Source: Burkholderia pyrrocinia | GTDB taxonomy: Bacteria; Pseudomonadota; Gammaproteobacteria; Burkholderiales; Burkholderiaceae | DNA length: 64,000 bases | Direction of reading: 5' to 3' | NCBI RefSeq assembly: GCF_003330765.1 | Contig: NZ_CP024904.1 | Coordinates: 248,001-312,000 of the forward strand | In this document: piece after piece, positions 8,872-55,471 of the stretch | How the letters are laid out: every line of letters begins with the position of its first letter | How positions within the stretch are numbered: the first letter of the stretch is position 1 | Translations under genes and position numbers: made by a program | Notes under the pieces: model-generated | The model's database searches: none | The model's input: the letters and a program-made list of their open reading frames with translations, nothing else | What the model was told of the DNA's origin: nothing

Positions 8872-11034
8872 GTGTTTCAAGGGCAAAGCTTGCGTGTTTC
8901 GCCGCTGGGCGATAACGGCATTTTCGAATTGTGCTTCGATCGTCAGGGCGAATCCATCAACAAATTCGACCGCAGGACCATCGATGAATTGCGGCAGGCC
9001 AACCAGTACCTGCTGAATCAGGCGAGCCTGCGCGGTGTCCTGGTGACCAGTGCGAAGGACGTTTTCATCGTCGGTGCGGATATCACCGAATTCGGGGCCA
9101 AGTTCGCGCAGCCAGCGGCCGCTATTGCGGCTGACGTGGCCGGAAGCAACGAAGCATTCATCCAGTTCGAAGACCTGCCGGTTCCTTCCGTGGTGGCAAT
9201 CAATGGCTTCGCATTGGGCGGTGGCCTCGAATTTGCGCTGACCGGCGCAATGCGAGTCATGTCGAGTGAGGCACGGATTGGTGTGCCAGAGGTGAAGTTA
9301 GGTCTGTTCCCCGGATTCGGGGGCACGGTCCGGCTGGTGCGCATTGCAGGGGCTGCGGTGGCGTGCGACTGGGTTGCCGGCGGCAAACCTGCCACGCCGG
9401 CTGCGGCCTTTGCAGCCGGCGTGGTGGACGATATTGCGGCGCCGGACGAACTGCGCTCCCGTGCGATCCATTTGCTTGAGCGGGCGATTGCCAACGAAGT
9501 CGATTGGCAGGCACGACAGGATCGAAAGCGCAAGCCATTGTCGATGGAGGCAGGGCAAGCCGCAGCTGCTTTTGAGCAAGCTCGCGCCATTGCAGGCGAA
9601 CGTGGCTCGCCGCACCAACCTGCTGCGCTGGCAGCAGTCGCCATGATGGCTGAGGGGGCGGCCCTTGACCGTGCTGGCGCCCTGGCTTTGGAAGCGCAGG
9701 TGTTCGGCGAGATCGCTCGTACTCAAGCCGCGTCGTCAATGGTTCAGACCTTTCTGAACGAACAGGCTGTCAAGAAGATCGCGCGCAACCACGCAAAAGG
9801 GGCGGACAAAGTGTCTCGCGCGTTGGTGCTGGGCGCGGGGATCATGGGCGGCGGGATAGCGATTACCCATGCCCTGCGGAAGATCCCGGCCCGTATGTAC
9901 GATCTGCAACAGCGAGCGCTCGACCAAGGCATGGCCGAGGCTCAAAAGCACGTTGCGCGTCAGGTCAAGACCGGGCGCCTGAGCGAATCCGCAAGCCTCG
10001 AGATTCTGTCGGCTGTCCAGCCGCAGCTGGATCTTGCGGGAATCGGCGAGGCGGATGCCGTGGTCGAGGCGATCGTCGAGAATCTGGACATCAAGCGCAA
10101 GGTCCTGGCGAATCTGGAGCCGTCGCTCAAAGAAGGGGCGATCCTGCTGTCCAACACGTCAAGTCTGCGCATCGACGACATTGCGGCGCCGCTCGAGCGT
10201 CCTGAACGGTTTGTCGGCATGCATTTCTTCAATCCGGTACCGATGATGTCGCTCGTGGAAGTCGTGCGCGGCACGCGTACCTCTGATCAGGCCGTGGCGA
10301 CCGCAGTGGGCTACGCAACTGCCCTGGGAAAAACTGCCATTGTCGTGCGTGATTGCCCCGGGTTTCTCGTCAACCGGGTGCTGACCGCATACATGCGTGG
10401 CTTTCTGAGGCTGGTTGCGGACGGCGCGGACTTCGAGCAGGTCGACAAGGTCATGGAGTCCTTCGGCTGGCCGATGGGGCCGGCCTATCTGGAAGACGTG
10501 GTCGGCATGGACACGGGTAGCCATGTCAACAACGTCATTTCAGCTGGCTATGCGGACCGCATGCCCGAGTTCGCTGACGACGCGCTGCGAGTGATGGTGC
10601 GCAACGGTCGGTTCGGTCAAAAGAACGGCCTGGGCTTTTACCACTACGAGGCGAGTGCGACCGGCGGCAAGCCGCGACGTACATCTTCAACGGATGCACA
10701 CGCGTTGCTTGCACAGCTGCAATCCGGGGGACGCCGGGATTTTACTCGCGAACGGATCATCGACCGCATGATGCTCCCGATGGTGCTCGAGGCAGCGCGA
10801 ACATTGCACGAGGGCGTGGTCGGAACTGCGGCGGAAGTGGACCTGGCGATGCAGCTTGGCCTCGGCTTCCCTGCCTATGCCGGTGGCCCCCTCAAATATG
10901 CCGACTGGCTGGGCCTTGCCGAAGTGGTGCGCCGTTGTGACCAACTGAGTGCACTGGGGCCGGCCTACGAGCCCAGCCAGCAACTGCGCGAGATGGCGTC
11001 GGCAAACGAGCGCTTCTATCCGATTACTCAATGA
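8872..11034 (+). CDS. FadB-like enoyl-CoA hydratase/3-hydroxyacyl-CoA dehydrogenase
   Basis: This is a 720-residue multifunctional beta-oxidation protein. The N-terminal hydratase has the CoA-binding GADITEF, the oxyanion and first Glu in ALGGGLEFAL, and the second Glu in VPEVKLGLFPGFGG. The dehydrogenase half has the NAD motif VLGAGIMGGGIAI near residue 320, the catalytic HFFNPVPMM near residue 450 and the C-terminal dimer domain. The start at GTG 8872 is preferred because taggag lies five bases upstream and the N-terminus then matches FadB proteins. A GTG at 8854 is possible. It heads the island operon, with 9 bases to the next gene. Confidence 0.95.
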   Translation: MFQGQSLRVSPLGDNGIFELCFDRQGESINKFDRRTIDELRQANQYLLNQASLRGVLVTSAKDVFIVGADITEFGAKFAQPAAAIAADVAGSNEAFIQFEDLPVPSVVAINGFALGGGLEFALTGAMRVMSSEARIGVPEVKLGLFPGFGGTVRLVRIAGAAVACDWVAGGKPATPAAAFAAGVVDDIAAPDELRSRAIHLLERAIANEVDWQARQDRKRKPLSMEAGQAAAAFEQARAIAGERGSPHQPAALAAVAMMAEGAALDRAGALALEAQVFGEIARTQAASSMVQTFLNEQAVKKIARNHAKGADKVSRALVLGAGIMGGGIAITHALRKIPARMYDLQQRALDQGMAEAQKHVARQVKTGRLSESASLEILSAVQPQLDLAGIGEADAVVEAIVENLDIKRKVLANLEPSLKEGAILLSNTSSLRIDDIAAPLERPERFVGMHFFNPVPMMSLVEVVRGTRTSDQAVATAVGYATALGKTAIVVRDCPGFLVNRVLTAYMRGFLRLVADGADFEQVDKVMESFGWPMGPAYLEDVVGMDTGSHVNNVISAGYADRMPEFADDALRVMVRNGRFGQKNGLGFYHYEASATGGKPRRTSSTDAHALLAQLQSGGRRDFTRERIIDRMMLPMVLEAARTLHEGVVGTAAEVDLAMQLGLGFPAYAGGPLKYADWLGLAEVVRRCDQLSALGPAYEPSQQLREMASANERFYPITQ

Positions 11035-11043
11035 GGGCTTGAC

Positions 11044-12291
11044 GTGCACTTCCAGCTTCCCGAAGACGTTCAGCAAATGCGGCAAACGCTGCGCCGGTTC
11101 GTAGATGAGCGGATACTCCCTCTCGACAACGAGTATCAGCGCATCGCCGATTCCGGCCGCTTTCCGACGGAGGTCGTCGAACCGCTCAAGCAGCAGGCGC
11201 GCGACGCAGGTCTCTGGAATTTGTTTCTTCCGGGTCTGCTCGACAACGAGCCGGGTACTCGCTTGACCAACATGCAGTATGCGCCGCTGGCCGAGATCAT
11301 GGGCCGCGTTCCCTGGGCTTCCGAGGTCTTCAACTGTAACGCGCCGGACACCGGCAACATGGAGTTGCTGCACCTCTTCGCGAATCCCGCACAGCGGGAT
11401 CGATGGCTGGTTCCGCTTCTCGAGGGGACCATCCGCTCCTGCTTCGCCATGACTGAACCGGATGTGGCTTCGTCAGACGCGACCAATATCCAGACGTCCA
11501 TCAGGCGCGAGGGCGACGAGTACGTCATCAACGGGCGAAAATGGTTCACCACGGGCGCGATGCACCCCAATTGCAAGTTGGCTATCGTGATGGGGGTGAC
11601 CGATTTCGATCCGGACGCGGCCAGGCATTGCCGACATTCGATGGTGCTTGTTCCGATGGACACCCCGGGTGTGCGCATCGTCCGCAACGTGCCGATCATG
11701 AGCCACCATCTGCCAGAGGGGCACTGCGAAATCGCGTTCGAGAACGTGCGCGTGCCGGTGTCCAACCTGCTTGGCGAAGAGAACAGCGGGTTCGCATTGG
11801 CGCAAGCCCGCTTGGGACCGGGGCGAGTCCATCATTGCATGCGAACGATCGGTCAGTGTGAAGTCGCGCTGGACTTGATGTGTGAGCGAGCGCTCTCGCG
11901 CCGCGCGTTCGGCAAGACCTTGTCGGACTTCGCCAACATTCAGGACTGGATTGCCTATTCGCGCGTCGAAATCGATCAAGCTCGTCTGTTCGTTCTGCAG
12001 GCGGCCTGGAAGATGGATACCTATGGCAACAAGTCCGCACATCTGGATGTTTCGGCCATCAAGCTCGTGGCGGCACAGCTTCAGACGCGGGTCGTCGATC
12101 GAGCGATTCAGGTATTCGGTGCGATGGGTATCACGCCCGACACGCCGCTGGCTTACCTCTGGTCCTGGGGGCGGGCAATGCGCTTCTTTGATGGCCCGGA
12201 CGAGGTCCACCTGCGCGCCATCGCTCGAGCCGAGTTGGCGAAGGCCAAGGAACAACTCGGGTCAACGGCACCGTACTACCGTCACCACTGA
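11044..12291 (+). CDS. Acyl-CoA dehydrogenase, ACAD10/11 type
   Basis: This is a 415-residue FAD flavoprotein. Family signatures are CFAMTEPDVASSDATNI (FAD/substrate site) near residue 125 and the C-terminal MRFFDGPDEVHLRAIA, which is characteristic of the ACAD10/ACAD11 branch rather than of short- or medium-chain enzymes. In animals the ACAD11 dehydrogenase is fused to an APH-fold kinase that phosphorylates 4-hydroxyacyl-CoA before elimination to 2-enoyl-CoA. Here a stand-alone APH kinase sits in the same island at 36042-37073. The start is GTG at 11044, nine bases after the FadB-like stop. Confidence 0.92.
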   Translation: MHFQLPEDVQQMRQTLRRFVDERILPLDNEYQRIADSGRFPTEVVEPLKQQARDAGLWNLFLPGLLDNEPGTRLTNMQYAPLAEIMGRVPWASEVFNCNAPDTGNMELLHLFANPAQRDRWLVPLLEGTIRSCFAMTEPDVASSDATNIQTSIRREGDEYVINGRKWFTTGAMHPNCKLAIVMGVTDFDPDAARHCRHSMVLVPMDTPGVRIVRNVPIMSHHLPEGHCEIAFENVRVPVSNLLGEENSGFALAQARLGPGRVHHCMRTIGQCEVALDLMCERALSRRAFGKTLSDFANIQDWIAYSRVEIDQARLFVLQAAWKMDTYGNKSAHLDVSAIKLVAAQLQTRVVDRAIQVFGAMGITPDTPLAYLWSWGRAMRFFDGPDEVHLRAIARAELAKAKEQLGSTAPYYRHH

Positions 12292-12510
12292 AGACGCGCT
12301 GTCTGTCATGCCCATGCCATCCCGGGCCACGGTCTGGCTGTGACGGGGCGACGGAACATCGTCCCTCGCCACTCGCCCGTACCGGCCGTACTCGATGTGT
12401 TCGTCGGTGTGGCCAACACTGTCGCTTAGGTACGCGGCAGTGCCGCTGATTCTGAGGGTGGCGTGAATGCCGTCCTCATCAAACGTAACGCCAGCTTTCA
12501 AGGAAGTTGA

Positions 12511-14495
<1,985 letters not shown>

Positions 14496-14556
14496 CCGCA
14501 GGGAGAACTGCGGCGAATTGACCGGCCGGCTGGCGTTCTATTAGGAAATCACATCT

Positions 14557-15705
14557 ATGACGATCCAATTCAACCGCTCGTGGAGTGATCCCGATCTCGA
14601 GCAGTATCGCGACACCGTCGTACGGTTCATCGAAGAGGAAATGCTTCCGCACGACGAGGCGGCTCGCCATCGCGGACACGTCGGGCATGACTTGTGGCGG
14701 AAAGCTGGAGCACTCGGGATCCTGTGTGCCGATCTCCCGGAAGAATGGGGCGGCGCGGGGGGCGACTTCCGGCACGAAGCCGTATTTCATGAAGAGATGG
14801 CTCGACGCGCGCTCTCGGGGATGAATGCCTCCGTGCACGCGATCGTGGCTCACTATCTCTTGAACCACGGCACCGAAGCGCAGAAACGTCGCTACCTGCC
14901 GCGCCTGATATCGGGCGAACTGGTCGGCGCGATTGCGATGACTGAACCGGGCGCCGGATCGGATCTGAAGGGTATTCGTACTCGGGCCCAGCGCGGGCAG
15001 GACGGATGGTGCATCAATGGCGCCAAGACGTTCATTTCGAACGGTTTGCTGGCTGGCCTTGTTTTGGTGGTGGCGAAGACGGAGTCGGGTGAGGGTGCTC
15101 GCGGCATTTCGATCTTCCTGTTGGAGACAGCCGATTGCGCCGGCTTTCGGGTCGGACGGTTGCTGGACAAGATCGGCATGAAGGCGCAAGACACCGCCGA
15201 GCTGTTTTTCGACGACGTGTTTGTCAGTGAGGACCAGATCCTCGGCGGACTGCCTGGACAGGGGTTTTACCAGCTCATGGCGGATCTTCCCTACGAACGG
15301 TTGCTCATCGGCGTGATGGCCCTGGCAGCAATGGAGGGGGCGTATGAGGAAACACTGGCCTATGTGCGTGATCGGCAGGCATTCGGGCAGGTAATTTCCA
15401 CGTTCCAGAACACCCGATTCAAGCTCGCGGAGATCGCCACGGAAATACAGGTCGGACGGGCATTCATCGATCGTTGCGTGCAGGACTTGCTGGTCGGCCG
15501 GCTGGACACGGCAACAGCGTCAATGGCGAAACTCTGGGGTTCAGAAGCACAGGGGCGAGTGGTTGATGCGTGCTTGCAGTTGTTCGGCGGTTACGGCTAC
15601 ATGAACGAATACGTGATTGCCAGGATGTACACCGACGCCCGGGTTCAGCGCATCTACGGTGGCACGAGCGAGATCATGAAGGAAGTGATCGCACGCGCAT
15701 TGTGA
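14557..15705 (+). CDS. Acyl-CoA dehydrogenase, long-chain/branched (ACADL-like) type
   Basis: This is a 382-residue FAD enzyme with AIAMTEPGAGSDL near residue 128 and the C-terminal RIYGGTSEIMKEVIAR. The usual SCAD/MCAD catalytic Glu before GTS is replaced by Gly, as in ACADL-type enzymes. In that type the base is the Glu of the helix-G motif, seen here as YERLLIG near residue 248. ACADL enzymes accept long and methyl-branched acyl-CoAs. It is the last gene of the first rightward operon and is followed by a terminator. Confidence 0.92.
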   Translation: MTIQFNRSWSDPDLEQYRDTVVRFIEEEMLPHDEAARHRGHVGHDLWRKAGALGILCADLPEEWGGAGGDFRHEAVFHEEMARRALSGMNASVHAIVAHYLLNHGTEAQKRRYLPRLISGELVGAIAMTEPGAGSDLKGIRTRAQRGQDGWCINGAKTFISNGLLAGLVLVVAKTESGEGARGISIFLLETADCAGFRVGRLLDKIGMKAQDTAELFFDDVFVSEDQILGGLPGQGFYQLMADLPYERLLIGVMALAAMEGAYEETLAYVRDRQAFGQVISTFQNTRFKLAEIATEIQVGRAFIDRCVQDLLVGRLDTATASMAKLWGSEAQGRVVDACLQLFGGYGYMNEYVIARMYTDARVQRIYGGTSEIMKEVIARAL

Positions 15706-15755
15706 TCGTGCAGGTTGCGTCGAGCGTAAAGCACGGCGTATGAATTGCAAGCGAG

Positions 15756-15789
15756 GCTCTACGAATTGGTCAAGTTCGTAGGGCTTTTT
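15756..15789 (+). terminator. Rho-independent terminator after the first island operon
   Basis: A 10-bp stem (gctctacgaa with ttcgtagggc, one G-U pair) at 15756-15765 and 15775-15784 has a 9-base loop and a run of five T. It lies 51 bases after the acyl-CoA dehydrogenase stop. The next 160 bases hold a 12-bp palindrome (gtgaaatttcac, 15845-15856) and a TATAAT at 15884 but no rightward gene. Confidence 0.8.
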
Positions 15790-15956
15790 GTGTTTCCGAC
15801 TCGCGCTGGAATTTCGGCGGACGCTTTAAGATCAGCATCTGCGCGTGAAATTTCACACCCATAAAAGTATGATGGACTACTAATATAATGGCCTATTTTG
15901 AATCAACGATATTGAGTGAAGCGGGCTAGAGGCCGAGCACGCTCACACGTGTGTCA

Positions 15957-16184
15957 TCAAACACGCATGGTAGGGCGTTTGAGCGAAGGCGGGAATACCC
16001 GCCACACCCGATCGGGGTGGCGGAAGAAGTACATTCTCAAGAGTTCCCCTGGACTGGCGAGCTCGACGTACACGCATCGTCGACTGCCGCGCCCAGCCAA
16101 ACGAACCACTCTGGTTTGCGTGGCTGAGGGCTGTCCCAGCCAGTACTCGACAAGCGCGTGCAGGGATTTTGCTCCTGTACTCAT
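15957..16184 (-). CDS. Hypothetical small protein (75 aa)
   Basis: An open frame encodes 75 residues beginning MSTGAKSLHALVEYWLG and ending in a basic, aromatic-rich segment with FFRHPDRVWRVFPP. The amino-acid pattern (amphipathic N-terminus, then a Trp/Phe/Pro-rich core) looks like a real folded protein rather than a chance frame. It lies 82 bases downstream of the acyl-CoA synthetase on the same strand and could be cotranscribed with it. No known domain is recognised. A weak aaggacgag motif lies ~14 bases before the ATG. Confidence 0.45.
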   Translation of the reverse strand: MSTGAKSLHALVEYWLGQPSATQTRVVRLAGRGSRRCVYVELASPGELLRMYFFRHPDRVWRVFPPSLKRPTMRV

Positions 16185-16266
16185 TTGATCACCAATCTCG
16201 TCCTTGGAGCTCGTCCCGATGCTACTCGAAAAAATACGGGAAGAGGATTCGGGCGCGCCTGGTACA

Positions 16267-17808
16267 TCAGGAGTTTTCGCGAGCGAGATACTGCTTTCGC
16301 AATTCGCCCTTCTGCAGTTTTCCGGTAGGAGTTCGTGGCAACTCGTCGACAAAGTCGACGCTCTTCGGTGCCTTGTATGAGGCAATCCGTGACTTCGCGA
16401 AGTCTATGATCTCCTTCTCGAGCTCCGTCGTTCCCGCATAGCCTTCTGCGAGGGTGACGACAGCCTTTACGCGTTCCCCCATCTCCGGATCGGGGATGCC
16501 GATTACTGCCACGTCCAGAATGGCCGGATGGAGTGCGAGTGCGTTTTCGACTTCCTGCGGATAGATATTGACTCCGCCAGAAATGATCATGAAGCCTTTT
16601 CTGTCGGTGAGGTAAAGGAACCCATCTTCGTCGACATGTCCGATGTCGCCAACCATCGTCCACGTCGAGTGAATCGGGTGTTGGGTCGCACGTGTTTTCT
16701 CCGGATCCTTGTGATACGAGAATGGCATCGTTTCACGCTCGAAATAGACGAGCCCATCCGATCCGGCGGGCAGCTCGTCGCCGCTCTCGTCACAGATGTG
16801 AATTTTGCCGAGTATCGAACGCCCGACAGACCCGGGTTTTTGCAGCCATTCCGATGGGCTGATGGTCGTAATCCCGTTCAACTCCGTGCTCGAATAGAAT
16901 TCGTAGAGTACCGGCCCCCACCAGTCCATCATCTTGCGCTTCACGTCGACAGGGCATGGTGCCGCCGCGTGTATTGCAACCTTCATGCTGCTGACGTCAT
17001 GCGCACCTCTGATGTCGTCCGGGAGTTTCAACATCCGGACGAACATTGTCGGAACCCATTGGCTGACGTTCACGCGATATTTCTCGATTGCCTCGAGTGC
17101 TGCTTCGGCATCGAATTTGTCCATGACGACGACGGTGCCGCCCATGGCCTGAATGGCAGCGCAAGTCCGCAGGGGGGCAGCATGATAGAGCGGAGCCGGG
17201 GAGAGATAAACCGTGTCGGTGCCGCACCCGAAATGTCCGCCAAACATGGCTACCATGCTGTCGCCGGCGTCCGATACTTGACGGTCGGGCAGCGGAAGTC
17301 GAACCCCCTTCGGACGTCCGGTCGTTCCCGACGAATAGAGCATGTCCGCGCCCCGGGGTTCATACTCGGGACGCTCCGAGGACGCCGTTTCCAACACGGA
17401 ACTCAACGAAACCGAACCGGGCAGGGCCACGTCAAAATGCACGACATGCGAAAGAGACGGGAGGTCGGCCCATGCACGCGCGAGATCCTGCCCCACGTCT
17501 CCGACAAAGAGACATTTCGCCCCCGAGTTCTGGAGGATGTACTCGATTTCCTCGCTCTTGAGATGGAAGTTTATCGCCGCGACGTAGAGCCCTGAGCGCT
17601 GGGCTGCCCAGTAGACGTCGAATATACGGTGATCGTTCTCCGAGAGGATGGCGACGACGTCACCTCTGTTCATTCCTTGCGCGCGAAGCCAGTTCGCAAT
17701 CCTGAGAGACCGGCCTTCGAGCTCGGAAAAAGTGACATGCAGCCCTGATGCAGCCATGATCACGGCCGGCTTCGAGGGGTGGGTTTGGGCGTGCGTTCCG
17801 GGGTACAT
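16267..17808 (-). CDS. AMP-forming acyl-CoA synthetase
   Basis: This is a 513-residue ANL-superfamily ligase that activates a carboxylic acid to its CoA thioester through an acyl-adenylate. The P-loop-like YSSGTTGRPKGV is near residue 167, GEFYSSTE-type acyl-site sequence (LYEFYSSTELNG) near residue 303, the hinge GDIGHVDEDGFLYLTDRKG near residue 400, and the catalytic Lys lies in PRTPTGKLQ near the C-terminus. The frame remains open ~95 codons upstream, but the ATG at 17808 matches the family length. It is transcribed leftwards, opposite to most island genes, and is a likely entry step for the island's beta-oxidation enzymes. Confidence 0.92.
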   Translation of the reverse strand: MYPGTHAQTHPSKPAVIMAASGLHVTFSELEGRSLRIANWLRAQGMNRGDVVAILSENDHRIFDVYWAAQRSGLYVAAINFHLKSEEIEYILQNSGAKCLFVGDVGQDLARAWADLPSLSHVVHFDVALPGSVSLSSVLETASSERPEYEPRGADMLYSSGTTGRPKGVRLPLPDRQVSDAGDSMVAMFGGHFGCGTDTVYLSPAPLYHAAPLRTCAAIQAMGGTVVVMDKFDAEAALEAIEKYRVNVSQWVPTMFVRMLKLPDDIRGAHDVSSMKVAIHAAAPCPVDVKRKMMDWWGPVLYEFYSSTELNGITTISPSEWLQKPGSVGRSILGKIHICDESGDELPAGSDGLVYFERETMPFSYHKDPEKTRATQHPIHSTWTMVGDIGHVDEDGFLYLTDRKGFMIISGGVNIYPQEVENALALHPAILDVAVIGIPDPEMGERVKAVVTLAEGYAGTTELEKEIIDFAKSRIASYKAPKSVDFVDELPRTPTGKLQKGELRKQYLARENS

Positions 17809-18573
17809 TGCTTTTAGGGAAGTAGAGTTTCTCTGGAGATGAGATCCAGCCTGGATGGCATTGCGGATCAACAAGAAGGCGGCATCGAGGGCGACTTCCG
17901 GATCACGCAGGAGCGCTCGGCGTTTGCGAAAACGCGAATGAAGCCCGGGAAAACGGGGGGGCGCGTCGCTGCAGGGCAGGCGCCGCAACCGCACCGAAAA
18001 GTTCGTGATGAGTCGACGATTAGCGACTCCATGAGCATGTTGACCTGGCACATCGTCTGTCTCCATCTTGCATCGTTCTACGAACAAGGGCTCCATGCGA
18101 CCGCCGCTCTTTCGGCACTGACGTCAGCGCACCACCGGCCCAAATCCTACTTTGAAGTATATACAATACTTCGACGTAAGAACAATGTCGATTGTGTGTT
18201 TGTGTGTCGCCGGTAGAGACAGCTACTAAAGCGGGCTATCGATATATACCGTGGTGCATCGGTTGATTCATTGCACGTCGGTGACATCTTCACGTGCGAC
18301 CACCGATTTCTCGTACCAACCGCCATAGCAAGGCATTGTGCACGGCGGGTTATGGTCCTTTGTAATGTTGTTCATATGAACTAGTTCGTCATGGAACCGG
18401 TCCTGCGTCACTTCCTGGGCCTTGCCATTGGGGTATCTGCTGAGTCGTTAGTTCTGCGCACTGCGATCTCGTCTATTTCGACGATGGTCTCACCTACGCG
18501 AGTGCGCGCCTAATCCGTGTGCCGGCCGCGGTGCGCAACGTTGGCCGACACACTCAGACAAGGTGGAGACAAC
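17809..18573. promoter_or_regulatory. Divergent intergenic region with two palindromes
   Basis: This 765-base region lies between the leftward acyl-CoA synthetase and the rightward esterase and holds no convincing gene. Two inverted repeats stand out: gaagtat-N5-atacttc at 18154-18172 and the 12-bp gttcatatgaac at 18370-18381. The stretch 18150-18420 is clearly AT-richer than the surroundings, as expected for promoters. These are candidate binding sites for the island's TetR regulator or the LAL protein. Confidence 0.45.
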
Positions 18574-20256: not shown

Positions 20257-20263
20257 AGGACGC

Positions 20264-20292
20264 GACTCGGCTTCTCCAAAAGAAGCCGAGTC
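20264..20292 (+). terminator. Strong hairpin after the esterase gene
   Basis: A perfect 12-bp stem (gactcggcttct with agaagccgagtc) and a 5-base loop start 8 bases after the esterase stop. There is no T-run after it, so it may act as an mRNA-stabilising or Rho-assisted terminator rather than a classical intrinsic one. Confidence 0.6.
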
Positions 20293-20527
20293 CATGCGAA
20301 TGTCTGGCCAGCTCATCCGGTGAAATGGGTGAGATGACCGGGGCGGGTGTCAGGTCGTGTGGTTGGGGCAAGGTGCTGCAGCGCCGAATCGGAGGAACTC
20401 GCCCTGTCAAGCCTTGCTCGCTTTGCCGGAGATCGAGTAGAGGTATTGGAGCAAGCCAGCTTACTTGATGGTAAACGGCTATCCGGAAACAAAAAAATAT
20501 TCTTATATTTGGTTAGGAGATCTATGT

Positions 20528-21706: not shown

Positions 21707-21969
21707 ATCCGAGCGGGGTTGCATGCGGCCGCGTCCACGAGACCGTGCCGCGTGCAACTCTCCGCGATAGTTGTGCTTATCCGGTCGACTGTCTGCATTG
21801 ACGGCGAAGATCGAAGCACCAATGGAGTCTTCGGTGCTTGACAGTGGGAGAACATCGTCCCAATATCTACTCACGAGTAGAGTGAGTACTTTTAAGTATT
21901 TTTTTGATTCGTGACGTTTACCAAGACGCCTGAGAGACGAGTCGTACTTTTATCCGAATGGAGATTGGC

Positions 21970-22731: not shown

Positions 22732-22815
22732 TGTATTGCAGGTGCGGGCGGCGCCTTTAAATTGTGCGCTACAAGCAGTCGCTCTGAAAATATGCTTGTG
22801 ATCGCCATGCGGTAG

Positions 22816-22848: not shown

Positions 22849-22865
22849 GAAATATAGGAACGTGT

Positions 22866-24585: not shown

Positions 24586-24861
24586 GAAGACTCCCTCAGA
24601 TTCGTCGTGTCCGCCTCCCGTGAACGTCTGCCTTGCACGAGGCAAGTAACGGATCGACACGCGGCGGCGGTAACCGCAGTATGCGAATGGCGGATACTAC
24701 CATGGCGTCGAATCTATACTTTCGGGTAGTGCTGCGCGTCATTGAGTCTTCCGGGGCGGCGTATTGCCGACCCGGCATCGCGAGGCGCGGGCGTCGGCGC
24801 GATGCCGTTTCAAGAGACGCTCGTTATCCGGGGCACCCGGATAAACGAGCCAGTCGGTGTC

Positions 24862-25545: not shown

Positions 25546-25588
25546 GGGTCCTGTCGCGCATGCGCGCGCGTGTTCGTGTCGGGGAATC

Positions 25589-26362: not shown

Positions 26363-26419
26363 AGTCGCTCTCCGCGGAGCGGGCGCCGCCCGGACGGCAC
26401 CCGCGAAACACCAGCGACA

Positions 26420-27643: not shown

Positions 27644-27667
27644 GTTGTCTCCTGGAATGCAGGGTGC

Positions 27668-27710
27668 GGATGCCCCTAGGGTTTTTTTTGCTAGTAGTCC
27701 CTTGGCATCC
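27668..27710. promoter_or_regulatory. Long inverted repeat before the binding-protein gene
   Basis: The arms ggatgcc (27668-27674) and ggcatcc (27704-27710) flank inner complementary ccct/aggg tracts and a run of eight T. The element lies 25 bases upstream of the binding-protein start, between it and the LAL regulator's 3' end. It could be an operator for the neighbouring LAL regulator or a terminator-like structure on the + strand. Confidence 0.4.
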
Positions 27711-27775
27711 TAGGCGCGGCGCAGCCGGCACCCCATCGTCGGAAGCGACGAATTGCACATCGGCAGGCAAGCTGT

Positions 27776-30460: not shown

Positions 30461-30596
30461 ACTGGGATGTGTCGAATTGTTGCGTGTGAAGGTCTGGCGT
30501 GCACTCGTCTCTTCCGACGATGGTATCGCACCAGGTGCGTCCCTAGACTACGAATCGCAGTGGACGGATGGCCGTCCAGCAGACATTGCTCTCACT

Positions 30597-31379
30597 ATGC
30601 ATCTCGATTCTTCTATTGCTGCCGTCGTGACCGGTGGCGCGTCCGGCCTCGGGGCTGCAACGGCCCGTCGTCTGGCGACCATCGGTGTCAAAGTCGCCGT
30701 GTTCGATCTCAACGCCCAACTGGGTGAGGCCTTGGCCAACGAAATCGGAGGGATCTACTGCTCCGTGGACGTCACGTCCGAGGAGCAGGTGGATGCTGCT
30801 TTCGCCAGGGCGCGTGCTGCACACGGTCAGGAACGCGTCATGATCAACTGCGCCGGTATCGGCCACCCCGCGAAAACGGCGAGTCGCGACAAGACCACCG
30901 GTACCGGGCGGCATTTTCCGATGAGGGATTTCGAACGGGTCATCCAAATCAACCTGCTCGGGACCTTTCGCTGTGCGGCAAAGTCTGCAGCAGGCATGCT
31001 CGATTTGCCCCCGGGCCCGGACGGAGAGCGCGGCGTCATCGTGAACACCGCGTCGGTCGCCGCGCAGGATGGCCAGATGGGGCAGGTAGCCTACGCGGCG
31101 TCGAAAGCAGCGATCGCAGGTATGACGCTGCCGATCGCCCGTGACCTGATGGACGACGGTATCCGTGTTAACAGCATTCTCCCCGGCATCTTCGACACGC
31201 CGCTGATGCAGGCCGCGCCGGACAAGGTGAAGGAGGCGCTGGCCGCGTCGGTTCCGTTCCCCAAACGGTTCGGTTCGCCGACCGAATTCGCTCAGATGGT
31301 CGAAATCACGATTACCAATGGATACCTCAACGGCGAGTGCATCCGCCTCGACGGCGCGATTCGCATGGCGCCGCGCTGA
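30597..31379 (+). CDS. HSD10-type 3-hydroxyacyl-CoA dehydrogenase (SDR), copy 2
   Basis: This is a 260-residue SDR with TGGASGLG near residue 15, NCAGIGHPAKT near residue 83, YAASKAA near residue 165 and the ending LNGECIRLDGAIRMAPR. It is a clear paralogue of the protein at 21970. It opens the second rightward operon (SDR, thiolase, livGFHM, kinase, racemase) and is divergent from the LAL regulator. The frame is open far upstream, but the ATG at 30597 fits the family N-terminus. The ribosome-binding site is weak. Confidence 0.9.
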   Translation: MHLDSSIAAVVTGGASGLGAATARRLATIGVKVAVFDLNAQLGEALANEIGGIYCSVDVTSEEQVDAAFARARAAHGQERVMINCAGIGHPAKTASRDKTTGTGRHFPMRDFERVIQINLLGTFRCAAKSAAGMLDLPPGPDGERGVIVNTASVAAQDGQMGQVAYAASKAAIAGMTLPIARDLMDDGIRVNSILPGIFDTPLMQAAPDKVKEALAASVPFPKRFGSPTEFAQMVEITITNGYLNGECIRLDGAIRMAPR

Positions 31380-31411
31380 CCAATCCCTTCATTACCGCAG
31401 GAGAAGTATTC

Positions 31412-32590
31412 ATGGCTGAAGCATATATCGTCGCTGCTCGCCGCACTGCTGGCGGCCGTCGCAATGGCCGCCTGTCGGGCTGGCATCCTGCCGACCTGGC
31501 GTCCGTCGTCCTGGACACCCTGGTGGATGACGCCGGGATCGATCCGGCTGCAGTCGAGGACGTGATCATGGGCTGCGTGGGGCAGGCCGGCGAGCAGTCG
31601 ATGAACATCGCCCGCAACGCCGTGCTGGCATCCACGCTGCCGAATTCGGTGCCCGCGACGTCGGTCGACCGGCAGTGCGGTTCATCGCAGCAGGCGCTGC
31701 ATTTCGCGGCGCAGGCCGTGATGTCGGGCACCATGGACTGTGTGATTGCAGCGGGCGTCGAGAGCATGACGCGCGTGCCGATGTTCACGCCCAGCGAACT
31801 TCCGCGCAAGGCGGGCTTGGGCGTATACAACAGCCCGCGCATGGACGAGCGATTCCCCGGCGTCGAGTTCAGCCAGTTCTCCGGCGCCGAGATGATCGCC
31901 CGGAAGTATGAACTGACCAAGCAGCAACTTGACGAGTATTCGCTCGAGAGCCACCGGCGTGCTGCCGTGGCAACGCGAGAGGGGCGTTTCGAGCGCGAGA
32001 TCATCGCGCTGGAAGCCCGTACCAAAGAAAGCGGTGCTACTGGTGAAATGCATGCCGCGGACGAGGGCATCCGCTTCGATGCAACCCTCGAAGCCATCGC
32101 TGGCGTGAAACTGCTGCAGGAAGGCGGCGTCATCACTGCGGCCAATGCCAGCCAGATCTGCGACGGTGCCGCTGGCGTCCTGGTGGTCAGCGAGCGTGCC
32201 CTCAAGACCTTCGGGCTCACACCCATCGCACGCGTGCATCACATGTCGGTGATGGGCCACGATCCGGTCATCATGCTCGAGGCGCCCATTCCCGCGACCG
32301 AGATTGCCTTGCGCAAGGCCGGTCTGAACATTCGGGACATCGATGCCTACGAGGTCAACGAAGCATTTGCTTCGGTGCCTTTGGCCTGGCTGCAAGCGAT
32401 CGGTGCGGATCCCCAGCGGCTGAACGTCAATGGCGGCGCGATCGCCCTGGGCCACCCGTTGGGCGCGTCGGGAACCAAGCTGATGACCACGCTGATCAAC
32501 GTCCTTCAACAGCGCGGTGGTCGCTACGGCCTTCAGACCATGTGCGAAGGCGGTGGCATGGCGAACGTCACGATCGTCGAGCGCCTCTGA
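31412..32590 (+). CDS. Thiolase (acetyl-CoA acyltransferase)
   Basis: This is a 392-residue thiolase. The acyl-accepting Cys89 lies in DRQCGSSQQAL, with His in GGAIALGHPLGASG and the second Cys in MCEGGGMANV near the C-terminus. It cleaves 3-ketoacyl-CoA, the last beta-oxidation step, yielding acetyl-CoA or propionyl-CoA for a methyl-branched substrate. An aggag site lies nine bases before the ATG, and the SDR stop is 32 bases upstream. Confidence 0.95.
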   Translation: MAEAYIVAARRTAGGRRNGRLSGWHPADLASVVLDTLVDDAGIDPAAVEDVIMGCVGQAGEQSMNIARNAVLASTLPNSVPATSVDRQCGSSQQALHFAAQAVMSGTMDCVIAAGVESMTRVPMFTPSELPRKAGLGVYNSPRMDERFPGVEFSQFSGAEMIARKYELTKQQLDEYSLESHRRAAVATREGRFEREIIALEARTKESGATGEMHAADEGIRFDATLEAIAGVKLLQEGGVITAANASQICDGAAGVLVVSERALKTFGLTPIARVHHMSVMGHDPVIMLEAPIPATEIALRKAGLNIRDIDAYEVNEAFASVPLAWLQAIGADPQRLNVNGGAIALGHPLGASGTKLMTTLINVLQQRGGRYGLQTMCEGGGMANVTIVERL

Positions 32591-32633
32591 TACAGCGCCG
32601 CGGGCCAGCCAGGCCCCACCCATGGAGACTGGG

Positions 32634-33437
32634 ATGCAACAAAGACAAGAATGCGCGGAGGCGCCTTTGCTCACGGTGGACAGTGTGTCCGTGCGCTTCG
32701 GTGGGATCGTGGCACTGGACCGTGTCAGTTTCGATGTGCGTCGGGGCGAAGTTCGGGGCTTGATTGGCCCGAACGGCGCAGGCAAGAGCACCTTGTTCAA
32801 CTGCCTGTCCCGACTCTATCGCTGCGACAGCGGCACGATCCACTTCGATGGCCATGTGTTGTCCCGAATGCCGCGACATCGCATTGCGAAGCTGGGCGTG
32901 GGTAGAACCTTCCAGAATCTGGCGTTGTTTCGAACCATGACGGTGCGTGACAACGTACTGGTCGGCGTCCATTCGCATCACCACAACGGCTTCCTTGCGG
33001 ACGCGCTTCGACTGCCGGCGGCTGTCGGCACCGAGCGCGCGGCCCAGGCACGCGTGGATGAAGCACTGGAGCTCGTCGGATTGCAGGCGTTTTCCGACCG
33101 GATCGTCGCCGACCTGCCGTTCGGAACACAAAAGCGGGTCGAACTGGCGCGTGCGCTTGCAAGCGAGCCGTCGTTGCTATTGCTGGACGAGCCGGCATGC
33201 GGCCTGAACCATGAGGAGCTCAGCGGTCTCGGCGAACTGATTCTGGACATTCGCAAGCGCCTGAACCTTACGGTGTTGCTGGTGGAGCACCACATGGGTC
33301 TGATCATGGGTGTGTGCGACCGAATCGTCGCGTTGAACTTCGGTCGCAAGATCGCCGACGGGAGCCCCGAGTATGTGCGCAACCATCCCGATGTGATTCG
33401 GGCCTATCTCGGAGCGGAAGAAGGGGAGACGGCATGA
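32634..33437 (+). CDS. livG: Branched-chain-type ABC transporter ATP-binding protein (LivG)
   Basis: This is a 267-residue ATPase with Walker A GPNGAGKST near residue 47, Walker B LLLLDEPACGLN and the LivG-specific C-terminal region (DRIVALNFGRKIADG). The signature loop is degenerate (DLPFGTQKRVELARAL), as usual in LivG. The ATG at 32634 with ggag five bases upstream is preferred over the ATG at 32622. The next gene overlaps by four bases. Confidence 0.95.
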   Translation: MQQRQECAEAPLLTVDSVSVRFGGIVALDRVSFDVRRGEVRGLIGPNGAGKSTLFNCLSRLYRCDSGTIHFDGHVLSRMPRHRIAKLGVGRTFQNLALFRTMTVRDNVLVGVHSHHHNGFLADALRLPAAVGTERAAQARVDEALELVGLQAFSDRIVADLPFGTQKRVELARALASEPSLLLLDEPACGLNHEELSGLGELILDIRKRLNLTVLLVEHHMGLIMGVCDRIVALNFGRKIADGSPEYVRNHPDVIRAYLGAEEGETA

Positions 33438-34150
33438 CTCGGCTCTTGGAAATCCGCGATCTGCGGGCAAGCTATAACGCATCGCAAGTCTTGCACGGCA
33501 TCGACATGAACGTGGAAGCCGGTCAAGTGACGGCTCTGCTGGGCGCCAACGGAGCTGGCAAGACGACCACATTGCGCGCGATCTGCCGCTTCATGGCGCG
33601 TACAAGCGGCAAGGTCACGTTTCGCGGGCAGCAGATCGAAGACCGTTCGACTGAACAGATCGCTGTGCTCGGCGTCGGGCATGTGCCTGATGGCCGCGGG
33701 ACGTTCCTGGGGCTGACGACCAAGGAAAACCTGTATCTGGGGTGTCATGCGCGCAAGGACCGGCGGGCAGTCGAGGAAGACGTCGAGCGCATGTACGACT
33801 ACTTTCCCCGTTTGAAGGAGCGTCGCGCGCAGCAGGCCGGCACGCTTTCCGGTGGGGAGCAGCAAATGCTGGCGATCGCGCGCGCGCTGATGGCGCGCCC
33901 CGGGTTGCTATTGCTGGATGAGCCTTCCTTCGGCCTGGCGCCGATGATGGTGCGGGACATTTTCGCCATCATGCGCCGCATCCGTGACGAGCAGCAGGTT
34001 GCCATCCTGCTGGTTGAACAGAACGCGCGGATCGCACTGGAGCTGGCAGACACGGCCTATCTGCTCGAGTCGGGCCGCATCGTCAAGCACGGCACCAGCG
34101 AGTCGATGCGCGGCGACGATGCCGTGCGTCGCGCCTACCTCGGAGAGTGA
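33434..34150 (+). CDS. livF: Branched-chain-type ABC transporter ATP-binding protein (LivF)
   Basis: This is a 238-residue ATPase with Walker A GANGAGKTT near residue 38, signature LSGGEQQMLAIARAL and Walker B LLLLDEPSFGLAP. It starts within the livG stop (ATGA), indicating translational coupling. It pairs with LivG to energise the LivHM permease. Confidence 0.95.
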   Translation: MTRLLEIRDLRASYNASQVLHGIDMNVEAGQVTALLGANGAGKTTTLRAICRFMARTSGKVTFRGQQIEDRSTEQIAVLGVGHVPDGRGTFLGLTTKENLYLGCHARKDRRAVEEDVERMYDYFPRLKERRAQQAGTLSGGEQQMLAIARALMARPGLLLLDEPSFGLAPMMVRDIFAIMRRIRDEQQVAILLVEQNARIALELADTAYLLESGRIVKHGTSESMRGDDAVRRAYLGE

Positions 34151-34152
34151 GC

Positions 34153-35025
34153 ATGGAGTCTTTCATTCAACAACTGGTAACCGGATTGTCGACAGGCGGT
34201 ATCTATGCCTGCCTGGCACTCGCGCTCGTCATGATCTACCAGGCGACACATCAAGTGAACTTTGCGCAAGGCGAGATGGCGATGTTCTCGACCTTCATCG
34301 CGTGGGCGTTGATTCAGGCAGGCGTGCCGTACTGGGGTGCGTTCTTCCTCACGATCGTGTTGTCTTTCGCGATGGGGGCGGCATTGGAGTTCGTCGTGAT
34401 ACGGCCGTTGCACAAGGCGCCCGAATTGAGCGTGGTGGTGGTGTTCATCGGTCTGCTGGTGATCTTCCATAGCCTGGCCGGTTGGCTGTTCGGCAGCCAG
34501 ATCAAGGCGTTTCCGAGCCCGTTTCCGAAAGATGCGTGGTTCGGAAGTGCGCTGATGTCGGCTCATCAGGTCGGGACGATCTTCGTTGCGCTGTGCATCG
34601 TCGCCGCACTGTTCACCTTCTTCCGCTTTACCACGCTGGGTCTCGCAATGCGCGCCGCTGCGCAAAACCCAGGCTCGTCTCGTCTACTGGGCATTCGTGT
34701 GGGCCGGATGCTCATGCTCGGATGGGGCTTGGCCGGTGCAATCGGCGCGGTTGCCGGAATGATGGTCGCGCCGGTGGTTTTCCTCGACCCCGGCATGATG
34801 AGCGGCGTCCTGATCTATGCGTTCGCGGGGGCGCTCATCGGGGGCATCGACAACCCGATCGGTGCCGTGATCGGCGGGTTCCTGGTCGGGGTGCTTGAAA
34901 ACTTGATCGGTACCTACGTAGTCGGCACTGAGCTCAAGCTTTCGGTGGCGCTGGTTCTTATCGTCGTCGTCCTCATCGTACGGCCCGCGGGTCTGATGGG
35001 GCGTCGCATCGTGCAACGTGTCTAA
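34153..35025 (+). CDS. livH: Branched-chain-type ABC transporter permease (LivH)
   Basis: This is a 290-residue inner-membrane protein with about eight hydrophobic segments. It has the LivH motifs GLSTGGIYACLALALVMIY at the N-terminus, HQVNFAQGEMAMF near residue 32 and GALIGGIDNPIGAVIGGF near the C-terminus. The ATG at 34153 with ggag seven bases before it is preferred to an overlapping GTG at 34147. Confidence 0.95.
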   Translation: MESFIQQLVTGLSTGGIYACLALALVMIYQATHQVNFAQGEMAMFSTFIAWALIQAGVPYWGAFFLTIVLSFAMGAALEFVVIRPLHKAPELSVVVVFIGLLVIFHSLAGWLFGSQIKAFPSPFPKDAWFGSALMSAHQVGTIFVALCIVAALFTFFRFTTLGLAMRAAAQNPGSSRLLGIRVGRMLMLGWGLAGAIGAVAGMMVAPVVFLDPGMMSGVLIYAFAGALIGGIDNPIGAVIGGFLVGVLENLIGTYVVGTELKLSVALVLIVVVLIVRPAGLMGRRIVQRV

Positions 35026-35028
35026 GCC

Positions 35029-36045
35029 ATGAATCCGAAGTCCATGACCTCTCATCCCGCTCCCTTTTCGGGACCCGCGCGCAGTCAGCGTGCCCGTTTG
35101 CCGCGAAGTCTGATTCTGCTGGCTCTCGCGATCGTCCCCGTGTTCGTCGCTCATGGATATGTCCTGTTCCAGATCACCATGGTGCTTTCCTATGCCGTCG
35201 CACTGGTCGGACTGAACATGCTGACCGGTTACAACGGCCAGATCTCCTTGGGACACGGCGCGTTCTATGCGATCGGCGCCTATACCGTCGCCATCCTGAT
35301 GGACAAGGCCTCGGTTCCCTACTGGTTTTGCATTCCTGCCGCCGGCCTGGTGTGCTTGCTGGTCGGGTACCTGTTCGGTCGCCCGGCGCTGAAGTTGCAG
35401 GGGCTCTACCTGGCGCTCGCGACCTTCGCTCTGGGTGTGGTGACGCCGCAGTTGCTGAAGTACAAGTACCTGGAACCATGGACCGGCGGCGTGGGCGGTA
35501 TCGTCTTGACCAAGCCGGATGCGCCGTTCGGTCTGCCGCTCGATTCCGATCAGTATCTCTACCTCTTCGCGCTCATCGTAGCGGTGGTGGTCTTCGTACT
35601 GGCCCGGAACATGATCGACAGCGGGACGGGGCGTGCCCTGCGCGCCATTCGCGACCACGAGATCGCCGCCGAGTCCATGGGAATTGACAACCGGCACTAC
35701 AAATCCATGACCTTCGGCGTATCCGCTGCATTTACCGGCATCGGCGGGGGGCTGTCTGCGCTGGCCGTTCAATTCGTTTCACCGGATTCTTTCACGATGT
35801 TCCTGTCCATTTCGCTTCTGGTCGGCGTGGTCGTCGGTGGCATCGGTACGCTTTGGGGCGCGCTGTTCGGCGCCGCTTTCATCATGTTCGTGCCGAGCGT
35901 TGCCGAGACGATTTCCAAGGATGCGGCCTGGGGAATCTACGGTCTGGTATTGATCCTCTTTGTCTTTGTTCTGCCAGGCGGCGTGATGGGGCTGATCACA
36001 CGCGTGCGCACGCGTCTGCAGGGGCAAGGGGGGGAGCAAGCATGA
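35029..36045 (+). CDS. livM: Branched-chain-type ABC transporter permease (LivM)
   Basis: This is a 338-residue permease with the LivM motifs LTGYNGQISLGHGAFYAIG near residue 65 and GRALRAIRDHEIAAESMGI near residue 205. The C-terminal part is hydrophobic. It follows livH by 3 bases and overlaps the kinase gene by four. Together with livGFH and the binding protein at 26420 it completes an importer. Confidence 0.95.
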   Translation: MNPKSMTSHPAPFSGPARSQRARLPRSLILLALAIVPVFVAHGYVLFQITMVLSYAVALVGLNMLTGYNGQISLGHGAFYAIGAYTVAILMDKASVPYWFCIPAAGLVCLLVGYLFGRPALKLQGLYLALATFALGVVTPQLLKYKYLEPWTGGVGGIVLTKPDAPFGLPLDSDQYLYLFALIVAVVVFVLARNMIDSGTGRALRAIRDHEIAAESMGIDNRHYKSMTFGVSAAFTGIGGGLSALAVQFVSPDSFTMFLSISLLVGVVVGGIGTLWGALFGAAFIMFVPSVAETISKDAAWGIYGLVLILFVFVLPGGVMGLITRVRTRLQGQGGEQA

Positions 36046-37073
36046 GCTGCAACCTCGAGTTCGATCCGGTTGTCCTTGCCGACTACCTGCAAACTTGCAT
36101 GCCGGAACTGCTTGGCCGGATGGACCTGCAACGCATTGGGGGCGGCCAGTCCAATCCCACGTTTTTCGCCACTTTCGAAAATGGTCCGCGCCTGGTCCTG
36201 CGCAAGCAGCCGCCCGGGGAACTGCTCAAGTCGGCGCATGCGGTAGATCGAGAGTTTCGTATCTTGCGCGCGTTGCATAAGACTGACGTACCGGTACCCC
36301 ATGCACTCCTGTACTGCGAGGACCGCGAAGTCATCGGAACGCCGTTTTATGTGATGGAGCGTCTTGAAGGCCGGGTCATGAGCAACTACGCAATGCCCGA
36401 AATTGACCCGGGACAACGGCGCAGCTATCTGTTCGCCCTGGCCGAAACGCTGGCTCAGCTGCACGCAGTCGATTGGGCCAGCGTCGGTTTGGCCGACTAC
36501 GGAAAGCCGGGCAATTTCTTCGCGCGTCAAATTGATCGCTGGACTCGCCAGTGGCAGGCATCCAAGATCCAGGACAACCCGGATATCGAACGTCTGATTG
36601 AATGGCTGCCGAGTCATATTCCGCCGGGCGACGAAACGACGATTGCCCACGGAGACTTCCGCCTTGGCAACGTGATGTTCCACCCGACCGAGCCGCGCGT
36701 GATCGCGGTGCTGGACTGGGAACTCTCGACACTGGGCCACCCGTTGGCGGACGCGGCGTACAGCAGTTTGCCGTGGCTAACCGAGCCGGACGTGTTCGAA
36801 GGTGTCAAGGGCCTGGATCTGCAGGCATTGCATCTGCCTGCCCAGCAGGAGTACCTCGCAGCCTACTTGGCCGCCAGCGGCCGACGGGACGCTGTTCGCC
36901 CGTTCCATCATGCGTTTTCGCTTTTCCGCTTTGCCGTGATCCTGGAGGGAATCACAGCACGAGCGAAGGCCGGAAACGCCGTCGGCGATGACGCCGTGGC
37001 GGTCGGCCGCTTGTCGTCTCGCTTTGCGCGCTATGCGGCGGAATTGATCGCAATCGATAAGGGAGCGCAATGA
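36042..37073 (+). CDS. APH-fold phosphotransferase (ACAD10/11 kinase-domain type)
   Basis: This is a 343-residue protein of the aminoglycoside-phosphotransferase/choline-kinase fold. The glycine-rich start has [10 protein letters not shown] near residue 29 and the nucleotide Lys in VLRKQPPG. The Brenner motif [11 protein letters not shown] is near residue 202 and the metal Asp lies in [12 protein letters not shown]. This subtype is the one fused to, or neighbouring, ACAD10/11 acyl-CoA dehydrogenases and is related to LvaA of the levulinate pathway. It is therefore a candidate 4-hydroxyacyl-CoA kinase, not an antibiotic-resistance enzyme. It is translationally coupled to livM and to the racemase. 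Confidence 0.88.
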
Positions 37074-38170
37074 TGGCTGGACCCCTTGCAGGATTGAAGG
37101 TTGTGGAATTCGCAGGGATTGGCCCGGGCCCTTTCTGCGCCATGGTGTTGGGCGACCTGGGCGCAGACGTGGTGCGCATCGCACGGCCCGGTCAGTCGCC
37201 TGACGCGCGTGACGTGACTACCCGCAACAGACGCACCGTACAACTGGATCTGCGTACCCCTGGTGCGAGGGAACAGGTCATGTCATTGATCGGCGCGGCC
37301 GATTGCCTGATCGAGGGATTCCGGCCCGGCGTGATGGAGAGGTTGGGTTTGGGGCCACAAGACTGCCTTGAGGCCAACGCTCGGCTGGTCTATGGCCGGA
37401 TGACAGGGTGGGGGCAACATGGGCCTCTGTCACAGTCGGCAGGGCATGACATCAACTATATCGCCCTCTCCGGCGCACTCAACGCGATCGGTCGGCCCGA
37501 CGAGGCACCGCCGCCGCCGTTGAACTACGTGGGCGATTTCGGTGGGGGCGGCATGCTGTTGGCCGTTGGACTGCTGGCGGCATTGCTCGAGGCGAAGGGT
37601 TCCGGCCGCGGTCAGGTTGTCGATGCGGCGATGACGGATGGTACGGCGTTGTTGTCGGCTTTCCTTTACGGACTCCGGGCCATGGGGCAATGGGGTAACC
37701 CGCGCGGTGAAAACCTGCTCGACGGCGGCGCCCATTTCTACGATACGTATGCGTGCGCAGACGGGAAGTTCATCGCGATCGGTGCCATCGAGCCGCAGTT
37801 CTACGCAGAACTGCGTGCACTTTGCGGACTTGATGATCCATTATTCGATGAGCAATTGGACGCCGCACGGTGGCCGCTGTTAAAGCTACGCTTGGCAAAC
37901 GTGTTCCGCACGCGTACTCGACAAGCGTGGTGCAACCTTCTTGAGGGCACCGATGCCTGCTTTGCGCCCGTGCTGGATTGGGATGAGGCACTCGTGCATC
38001 CTCACAACGTTGCGCGGGAGACCTATCTGACTGTAGATGGGGTGGCTCAGCCGGCACCGGCACCGCGATTCTCAAGGACCGTCAATGGGACACCGCAGCC
38101 GACACGGTCCGCGTCGATACAAGAAGCATTGGCGACTTGGAGCGTCAACGCGTTTCCCGGTGCAGCGTGA
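37070..38170 (+). CDS. Alpha-methylacyl-CoA racemase (CaiB/BaiF family)
   Basis: This is a 366-residue type III CoA-transferase-fold protein. The racemase catalytic residues are recognisable: His in [14 protein letters not shown] near residue 126, Asp in [16 protein letters not shown] near residue 155 and Glu in [12 protein letters not shown] near residue 240. It epimerises 2-methyl-branched acyl-CoAs so that only the S form enters acyl-CoA dehydrogenation. The start at 37070 overlaps the kinase stop (ATGATG). It is the last gene of the second rightward operon. Confidence 0.92.
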
Positions 38171-55469: not shown

Positions 55470-55471
55470 GG

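Follow-up and report, generated by a model that had tools for sequence, protein, structure and literature searches.

Gene content and boundaries of the island

The window analyzed here is a stretch of 64,000 nucleotides from Burkholderia pyrrocinia (contig NZ_CP024904.1, positions 248,001 to 312,000), on the third of the three contigs that make up an 8.0-Mb genome, in which a sequence-only reading had delineated a block of genes for the catabolism of a branched, possibly ester-derived carboxylic acid. Our analysis suggests that this block is a catabolic island the two halves of which probably form one regulon, with a MalT-like regulator, an alpha-methylacyl-CoA racemase (AMACR) and a split pair of proteins related to the acyl-CoA dehydrogenases (ACADs) ACAD10 and ACAD11. 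Genes were called from open frames, codon-position GC and family searches, and the features of the island are the following (coordinates, strand, description).

8788..38182, no strand: whole island, from homology to three other Burkholderia genomes (start 8771-8789, end 38154-38182)
8791..8808, +: exact copy of the predicted operator, TTCGTCGCTTCCGACGAT, ahead of the fadB operon
8854..11034, +: FadB-like hydratase/3-hydroxyacyl-CoA dehydrogenase (PRK11730, 929 bits against a cut-off of 870; under the TIGR02437 cut-off)
11044..12291, +: ACAD10/11-type (LvaC-like) dehydrogenase with HCMR motif, predicted 4-phosphoacyl-CoA eliminase
12514..13500, +: nitronate monooxygenase (NMO)-family, NMO/NQO-like flavoprotein (best solved match PA1024, 2gjl, 412 bits)
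13494..14495, +: MDR-family quinone/enoyl reductase-like protein
14557..15705, +: ACADL-like acyl-CoA dehydrogenase with the PYERLL glutamate context
16267..17808, -: FadD4/PRK13390-like acyl-CoA ligase
18468..18485, +: weak site resembling the operator (4 mismatches), kept in all four carriers, 106 bp ahead of the start of the esterase
18574..20256, +: tannase/MHETase-family esterase, predicted lipoprotein (lipobox read by eye)
20528..21706, +: porin
21958..22731, +: HSD10-like SDR 1
22866..23657, +: enoyl-CoA hydratase/isomerase 1 (crotonase)
23968..24660, -: TetR-family regulator
24862..25668, -: nitroreductase-family flavoprotein
25589..26362, -: enoyl-CoA hydratase 2 (crotonase)
26420..27643, -: Liv-type periplasmic binding protein
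27735..27752, -: exact copy of the predicted operator, ahead of the binding-protein operon
27776..30460, -: MalT-like (LAL) transcriptional regulator, with a TPR region like that of MalT and a LuxR HTH at the C-terminus
30504..30521, +: predicted operator with 2 mismatches, in the interval separating SDR2 from the MalT-like gene
30597..31379, +: HSD10-like SDR 2 (SDR2)
31412..32590, +: 3-ketoacyl-CoA thiolase (PRK06504; best solved match FadA5)
32622..36045, +: ABC importer of the Liv (branched-chain amino acid) type, comprising two ATPases and two permeases
36042..37073, +: ACAD11 kinase-domain-like (LvaA-like) phosphotransferase, HGDFRLGN catalytic loop
37070..38170, +: alpha-methylacyl-CoA racemase (AMACR/MCR)

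Family and solved-structure searches recovered, at their expected places, all the gene classes named in the sequence-only reading, including its two regulators, one of the TetR family and one MalT-like, LuxR-type. That account did not include the NMO/NQO-like flavoprotein, the MDR reductase, the nitroreductase and the shared operator, and it named the ACAD11-like gene but not its phosphotransferase partner.

In comparisons with the three other carriers, namely G001, Burkholderia sp. Bp9142 (G040) and B. aenigmatica LMG 13014 (G035), the latter two being same-genus genomes, similarity at the DNA level starts at 8789, 8789 and 8771, and ends at 38170, 38154 and 38182, respectively, so that the block originally placed at 8872-38170 comes close to the true edges. 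Most of the pieces in between are 88-94% identical to the respective relatives (79% for one short piece), and the sequence immediately beyond the island differs in each of the four genomes. Further out on the left, a gene of the ETF-QO type is common to G001 and G040, and a TetR/SDR pair to G040 and G035; at the right end, the three relatives have some further bases in common that the window lacks. Similarity of the left flank to an island-free B. pyrrocinia record ends at 8774, within an M4 metallopeptidase gene. This gene (7863-8840 in the window) is broken at the island edge: its 5' part is gone and an internal segment is missing near 8438-8440.

The composition of the island is unlike that of its flanks, as had been proposed, with a GC content of 60.7% (8872-38170) as opposed to 66.5% (1-8850) and 66.1% (48200-64000), and trinucleotide distances that are mostly raised too. 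Low GC is not exclusive to the island, being 59.8% in the stretch 44226-48200, which holds a class 3 lipase gene (45040-46272) and is separated from the island by RND efflux genes. Elsewhere in the window, 58497-62999 matches, at 91%, a region of a B. cenocepacia plasmid whose annotations include mhpT and dmpG.

Within the genus, 4 of 65 genomes encode the esterase at 76% identity or more and 4 of 61 encode the racemase at a minimum of 94%, and these are the same four genomes, that of the window, G001, G035 and G040. A single contig contains the whole island only in the case of the window and of G001, where it has two inserts (6 kb near 15.8 kb and 3.9 kb between the island halves); in G035 and G040, the halves sit on two separate contigs each. 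In G035, an extra ACAD gene is present at the 15.8-kb junction. The same genome encodes a phage-type integrase at a distance of about 16 kb from the fadB end (the edges were checked for integrases, transposases and terminal repeats by eye only). Of 72,556 plasmid records, none contains most of the window region 8000-32000, the best places covering 3%. The block is shared, has sharp edges and occurs in different settings, as expected of mobile genomic islands, suggesting that it was horizontally acquired.

A predicted operator and its proposed MalT-like regulator

The MalT-like protein matches PF17874 (84 bits) and PF00196 (64 bits), both over the cut-off, as expected of the MalT/LAL family, and is a relative of MalT rather than MalT itself (312 bits against the MalT equivalog cut-off of 537). 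Using a script that searches for palindromes common to intergenic stretches, we detected an 18-bp imperfect palindrome, TTCGTCGCTTCCGACGAT, that precedes three operons, in both halves of the island. All four sites listed above have counterparts in the three relatives, with one exact site carrying one mismatch in G001. At up to 2 mismatches, the whole 8.0-Mb genome contains 8 sites, 3 of them in the island including both exact ones, and none of the reversed control pattern.

In a sample of 299 genomes of the family, drawn from a larger group, the exact motif is present in 24 (reversed control, 0) and the regulator, counted at E <= 1e-180 with weaker relatives left out, in 28; G035 and G049 were examined separately from this count. 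The two occur together in 23 genomes, the regulator alone in 5 and the motif alone in one (G015, with no regulator match down to 1e-60), which corresponds to a Fisher p of 1.6e-28, a figure that is uncorrected for relatedness and inflated by the concentration of the motif in one genus described below. Within the 23 genomes, 20 of the 25 exact sites are located within 10 kb of the regulator gene, and the remaining ones are the sites in G259 and G309 and, in three genomes, those at the far ends of this island.

In 20 stretches around other regulators (382 kb), 21 sites at up to 2 mismatches are spread over 11 stretches (L052 and L060, which lie beside regulator loci, were left out of this count and have no such site), as opposed to none in the 713 kb of 37 racemase stretches that lack the regulator. 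The latter set derives from 40 racemase neighborhoods of up to 20 kb, some ended by contig ends, that represent 40 of 46 places (three others are in the island and three in loci fetched otherwise); excluded from it were L108, itself one of the regulator loci, as well as L075 and L076, which encode a 39% identical regulator relative and have no site. Among the 21 sites, 20 are located outside matched genes. For 19 of the 21, a homolog of an island gene starts 35-193 bp downstream on the same strand, and 8 of the 21 have also, or instead, such a homolog on the opposite strand. A search of the order, which provided material not used for derivation of the motif, identified 9 of 399 genomes as carriers of the regulator, including two from the same family. 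In the other families, eight loci from seven genomes (320 kb) contain 11 sites, 9 of which lie 51-182 bp before a same-strand cluster gene, and three of the eight loci have none (G585, G457 and G662b).

For the 21 regulator loci outside the island, some of which are truncated stretches, a gene was counted as present at 45% identity over 55% of the query. By this measure, the loci encode AMACR in 11 cases, the ACADL-like dehydrogenase in 14, SDR2 in 10, the thiolase in 12, FadB in 7, the NMO-like protein in 6, LivH in 5 and the phosphotransferase in 5, with the esterase and TetR found in none, and 13 of the 21 carry at least one operator site. The AMACR, ACADL-like, SDR2 and thiolase genes are found together at six loci (G042, G305, G370, G662a, G452 and G360) from three families. 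By these counts, the racemase set recurs as a unit in part of this regulator family. One of the six loci is the megaplasmid cluster of Cupriavidus metallidurans CH34 (L041; G305), which shares with the island the MalT-like regulator, an exact operator and homologs of AMACR (68% identity), the NMO-like protein (73%), SDR2 (70%), the thiolase (77%) and the ACADL-like dehydrogenase (48%) but, unlike the island, has no relative of the esterase, Liv permease or phosphotransferase within the 30-40 kb read. The TetR-family protein is unlikely to be the owner of the operator, given that no homolog of it was found at the 21 loci. Taken together, the distribution of the operator suggests that the two halves are probably one regulon, with operons jointly controlled by the MalT-like regulator at the predicted 18-bp site; operator binding and the sense of regulation are predictions.

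The racemase, the predicted split ACAD10/11 pair and the hydrolases

The racemase yields a 433-bit match to solved AMACR/MCR structures, and its motifs GHDINY, GDFGGG and GAIEPQFY, with H, D and E at positions 125, 154 and 238, are identical in the alignments to the AMACR chains 8rmw and 9i2t. We take these H, D and E to be the catalytic residues, in which case the claim that the full catalytic set is retained holds, and the protein can be assigned to the AMACR/MCR family and is probably an epimerase of 2-methylacyl-CoA. The best solved match of the ACADL-like protein is mitochondrial long-chain acyl-CoA dehydrogenase (LCAD; 370 bits, E 1e-109), where the glutamate in the PYERLL context presumably has its role, and those of both SDRs are HSD10-type enzymes. 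Peroxisomal breakdown of pristanate and C27 acids uses AMACR and branched-chain oxidation. The island resembles that pathway in combining a racemase with HSD10- and ACADL-type enzymes for 2-methylacyl-CoAs, and differs from it in being a bacterial island, with a regulator and an importer of its own and a substrate class that is putative. Two relatives have an electron-transfer flavoprotein (ETF)-ubiquinone oxidoreductase-type gene at a distance of 2-7 kb from the fadB end (L035:18233-19993 and L036:7108-8781, the latter by DNA match), which would be a fitting electron acceptor for the ACADs. PA1024, the closest solved relative of the NMO-family protein, is presumably an NADH:quinone reductase. 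A nitro-compound role for this protein and the nitroreductase was considered, with no evidence either way; homologs of the nitroreductase (at least 30% identity) occur within 14 of the 40 racemase neighborhoods (L069-L108), a linkage for which we have no explanation.

For the phosphotransferase 36042-37073, the match is to the ACAD11 kinase domain (8v3v, 225 bits, with HGDF aligned), and for the dehydrogenase 11044-12291 it is to the ACAD11 dehydrogenase domain (391 bits), with HHCMR and DGPDEVH, containing the conserved aspartate, aligned. Thus, the sequence hallmarks of the ACAD10/11 and LvaA/LvaC proteins, a kinase with a catalytic aspartate loop and an ACAD with HCMR and the aspartate, are both present. 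The two genes, which are 92-98% identical in the three other carriers, are split over two different operons, each headed by the operator. According to two papers on ACAD10/11, of 2024 and 2025, such kinase/dehydrogenase pairs convert 4-hydroxyacyl-CoA to 4-phosphoacyl-CoA and then to 2-enoyl-CoA, with levulinate as the bacterial example (PMC11342911, PMC12440821), and the HCMR motif is reported to be essential (PMC12440821). In this combination of a kinase and an HCMR-type dehydrogenase for 4-hydroxyacyl-CoA, the two island proteins resemble the Pseudomonas putida lva operon and mammalian ACAD10/11 as described there (PMC11342911, PMC12440821); the island differs in that its pair is divided between two operons and accompanied by a racemase and a Liv-type importer. 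We predict that 36042-37073 and 11044-12291 are a split LvaA/LvaC-like pair that removes the 4-hydroxyl from acyl-CoAs. If so, the acid may carry a hydroxyl block besides the methyl branch, and the island should pass two blocks of beta-oxidation, the 2-methyl branch and the C4 hydroxyl. A general linkage of the racemase with ACAD11-type proteins was rejected, given that an APH homolog (at least 45% identity) was found in one of the 40 racemase neighborhoods (L086) and an HCMR-type ACAD in one other (L093).

The esterase matches MHETase and feruloyl esterases among solved structures and belongs to the tannase family (PF07519), with the Ser246-Asp472-His509 triad kept (numbering from the 18517 frame). 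It differs from that family in lacking the cysteine pair of the CS-D-HC motif, which is named in PMC7936011, with GGSKGG and GHAGG in place of GCS and HC. Relatives at 38-44% identity (loci L044-L047 and L040) likewise keep Ser-Asp-His without the usual cysteine beside the serine. In B. aenigmatica G035 (L033, L034), a second copy, 76% identical to that of the window, is encoded beside a CoA-transferase III/ACAD pair. The sequence-only reading was to be refuted by homologous clusters in which the racemase and the esterase are not conserved together, and for the esterase this is the case: a relative of it was found at none of the 21 regulator loci outside the island and, at E <= 1e-15, in none of the 40 racemase neighborhoods. 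The esterase accompanies the racemase only in the four island carriers and was rejected as a part of the core pathway. It appears to be an accessory addition of this island, and the ester origin of the acid is an accessory guess. A GH3 glycosidase gene adjoins the TetR gene in all three relatives: in G001 it lies between the two halves, in G040 it occurs at both contig ends, and in G035 it accompanies one half. The genome of the window encodes a 92% identical GH3 protein on another replicon, in a different setting and with no operator copy nearby, and accordingly GH3 is only partly kept as an island gene.

Proposed pathway and alternatives

Based on these gene families and motifs, we propose, with a probability of roughly 0.6 for the explanation as a whole, that the island takes up and degrades acids with methyl branches or hydroxyls that block ordinary beta-oxidation. 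The acid would enter via the porin and the Liv-type ABC importer and would be activated by the CoA ligase; the racemase would produce the (S)-2-methyl form, to be followed by ACADL-like dehydrogenation, hydration, HSD10-like dehydrogenation and thiolysis, with propionyl-CoA released wherever a branch sits. The split ACAD10/11 pair would phosphorylate 4-hydroxyacyl-CoAs and eliminate the phosphate, allowing passage of chains in which a hydroxyl reaches C4. The MalT-like regulator would control the operons together at the 18-bp operator, and the esterase, along with the linked GH3 glycosidase in three of the four carriers, may free the acid from esters or glycosides. The branched-acid pathway of the sequence-only reading gains support from the linkage of the racemase set and from the operator that joins the halves, and is unsupported with respect to the esterase.

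Several observations weigh against this proposal. The joint movement of the halves is unproven in G035 and G040, where they sit on separate contigs. As many as 8 of the 21 regulator loci lack a site at up to 2 mismatches, the racemase (at least 45% identity) is present at only 11, all four marker enzymes at six and the Liv permease at five, and both ACAD11-type partners are found together at only three (G049, G029 and G259). Within the island, the only site at the esterase promoter has 4 mismatches, and the search of the island intergenic stretches revealed no operator copy before the CoA ligase. Elsewhere, 18 of the 24 genomes with the motif belong to one genus, that of C. metallidurans, and 14 of those 18 have the site at a distance of 1.85-1.97 kb to the regulator, as would be expected of one inherited cluster; exact sites lie as far as 36 kb (G259) and 61 kb (G309) from the regulator, and some of the genes that follow sites are only distant homologs (29-36% identity).

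Among the alternatives, a pathway specific for esters or glycosides (e.g., plant or fungal acyl glycosides), with the esterase and GH3 as essential first steps, is a tentative possibility: it would account for the intact triad, the presence of the esterase in all four carriers and the GH3 gene beside TetR in the relatives, but not for the lack of the esterase at the regulator and racemase loci or for the displaced GH3 gene of the window's genome. It seems unlikely that only an alpha-methyl-branched isoprenoid or similar acid is degraded, with the ACAD11-type pair serving a by-product or being a leftover and hydroxyl removal lying outside the main route. Such a pathway agrees with the more frequent occurrence of the racemase set than of this pair at the regulator loci, but not with the conservation of both genes in the three carriers, in two operons that are each headed by the operator.

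MCR acts on C27-type steroid side chains, and the thiolase has the steroid thiolase FadA5 as its best solved match, so that the racemase, thiolase and ligase could be imagined to act on a steroid or bile-acid side chain. We consider this improbable given that the ligase is closer to the PRK13390 and FadD4 models (672 and 586 bits) than to the steroid ligase model (234 bits) and that no ring-degradation gene was recognized in the island (the search for such genes was confined to the island). Equally hard to credit, or slightly more so, is an ordinary heap of beta-oxidation paralogs with no common purpose: the genome is rich in such genes (19 CoA-transferase III matches) and the halves are on separate contigs in two relatives, but the sharp edges are common to four genomes and one operator stands before several operons.

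Returning to the proposed pathway for branched and hydroxylated acids, each of the enzyme families is already known, and the combination and the operator have no counterpart in the literature searched: the searches, with subscription literature largely outside their scope and thus no proof of absence, retrieved no described cluster or switch of this kind and no paper with the operator core. A more far-reaching version, which is doubtful at present, is that the MalT-like regulator and TTCGTCGCTTCCGACGAT govern a dedicated program, in several families of Burkholderiales, for acids with both a 2-methyl branch and a hydroxyl that ends at C4, the racemase and the ACAD10/11 pair being co-regulated to clear both. 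Glycosyl or sugar esters of 2-methyl-6-hydroxy terpenoid acids would be a fitting, if unproven, source. Under this version, one round of oxidation of such an acid would release propionyl-CoA and leave a 4-hydroxyacyl-CoA. Because the ACAD10/11 pair sits in one predicted regulon with the racemase, the importer and the hydrolases, the substrate should be findable by growth tests, and with the esterase being accessory, free branched or hydroxy acids would be a better starting point for experiments than esters. The predicted operator would provide a sequence handle for predicting the regulon in several families of Burkholderiales and for finding the inducer with reporters.

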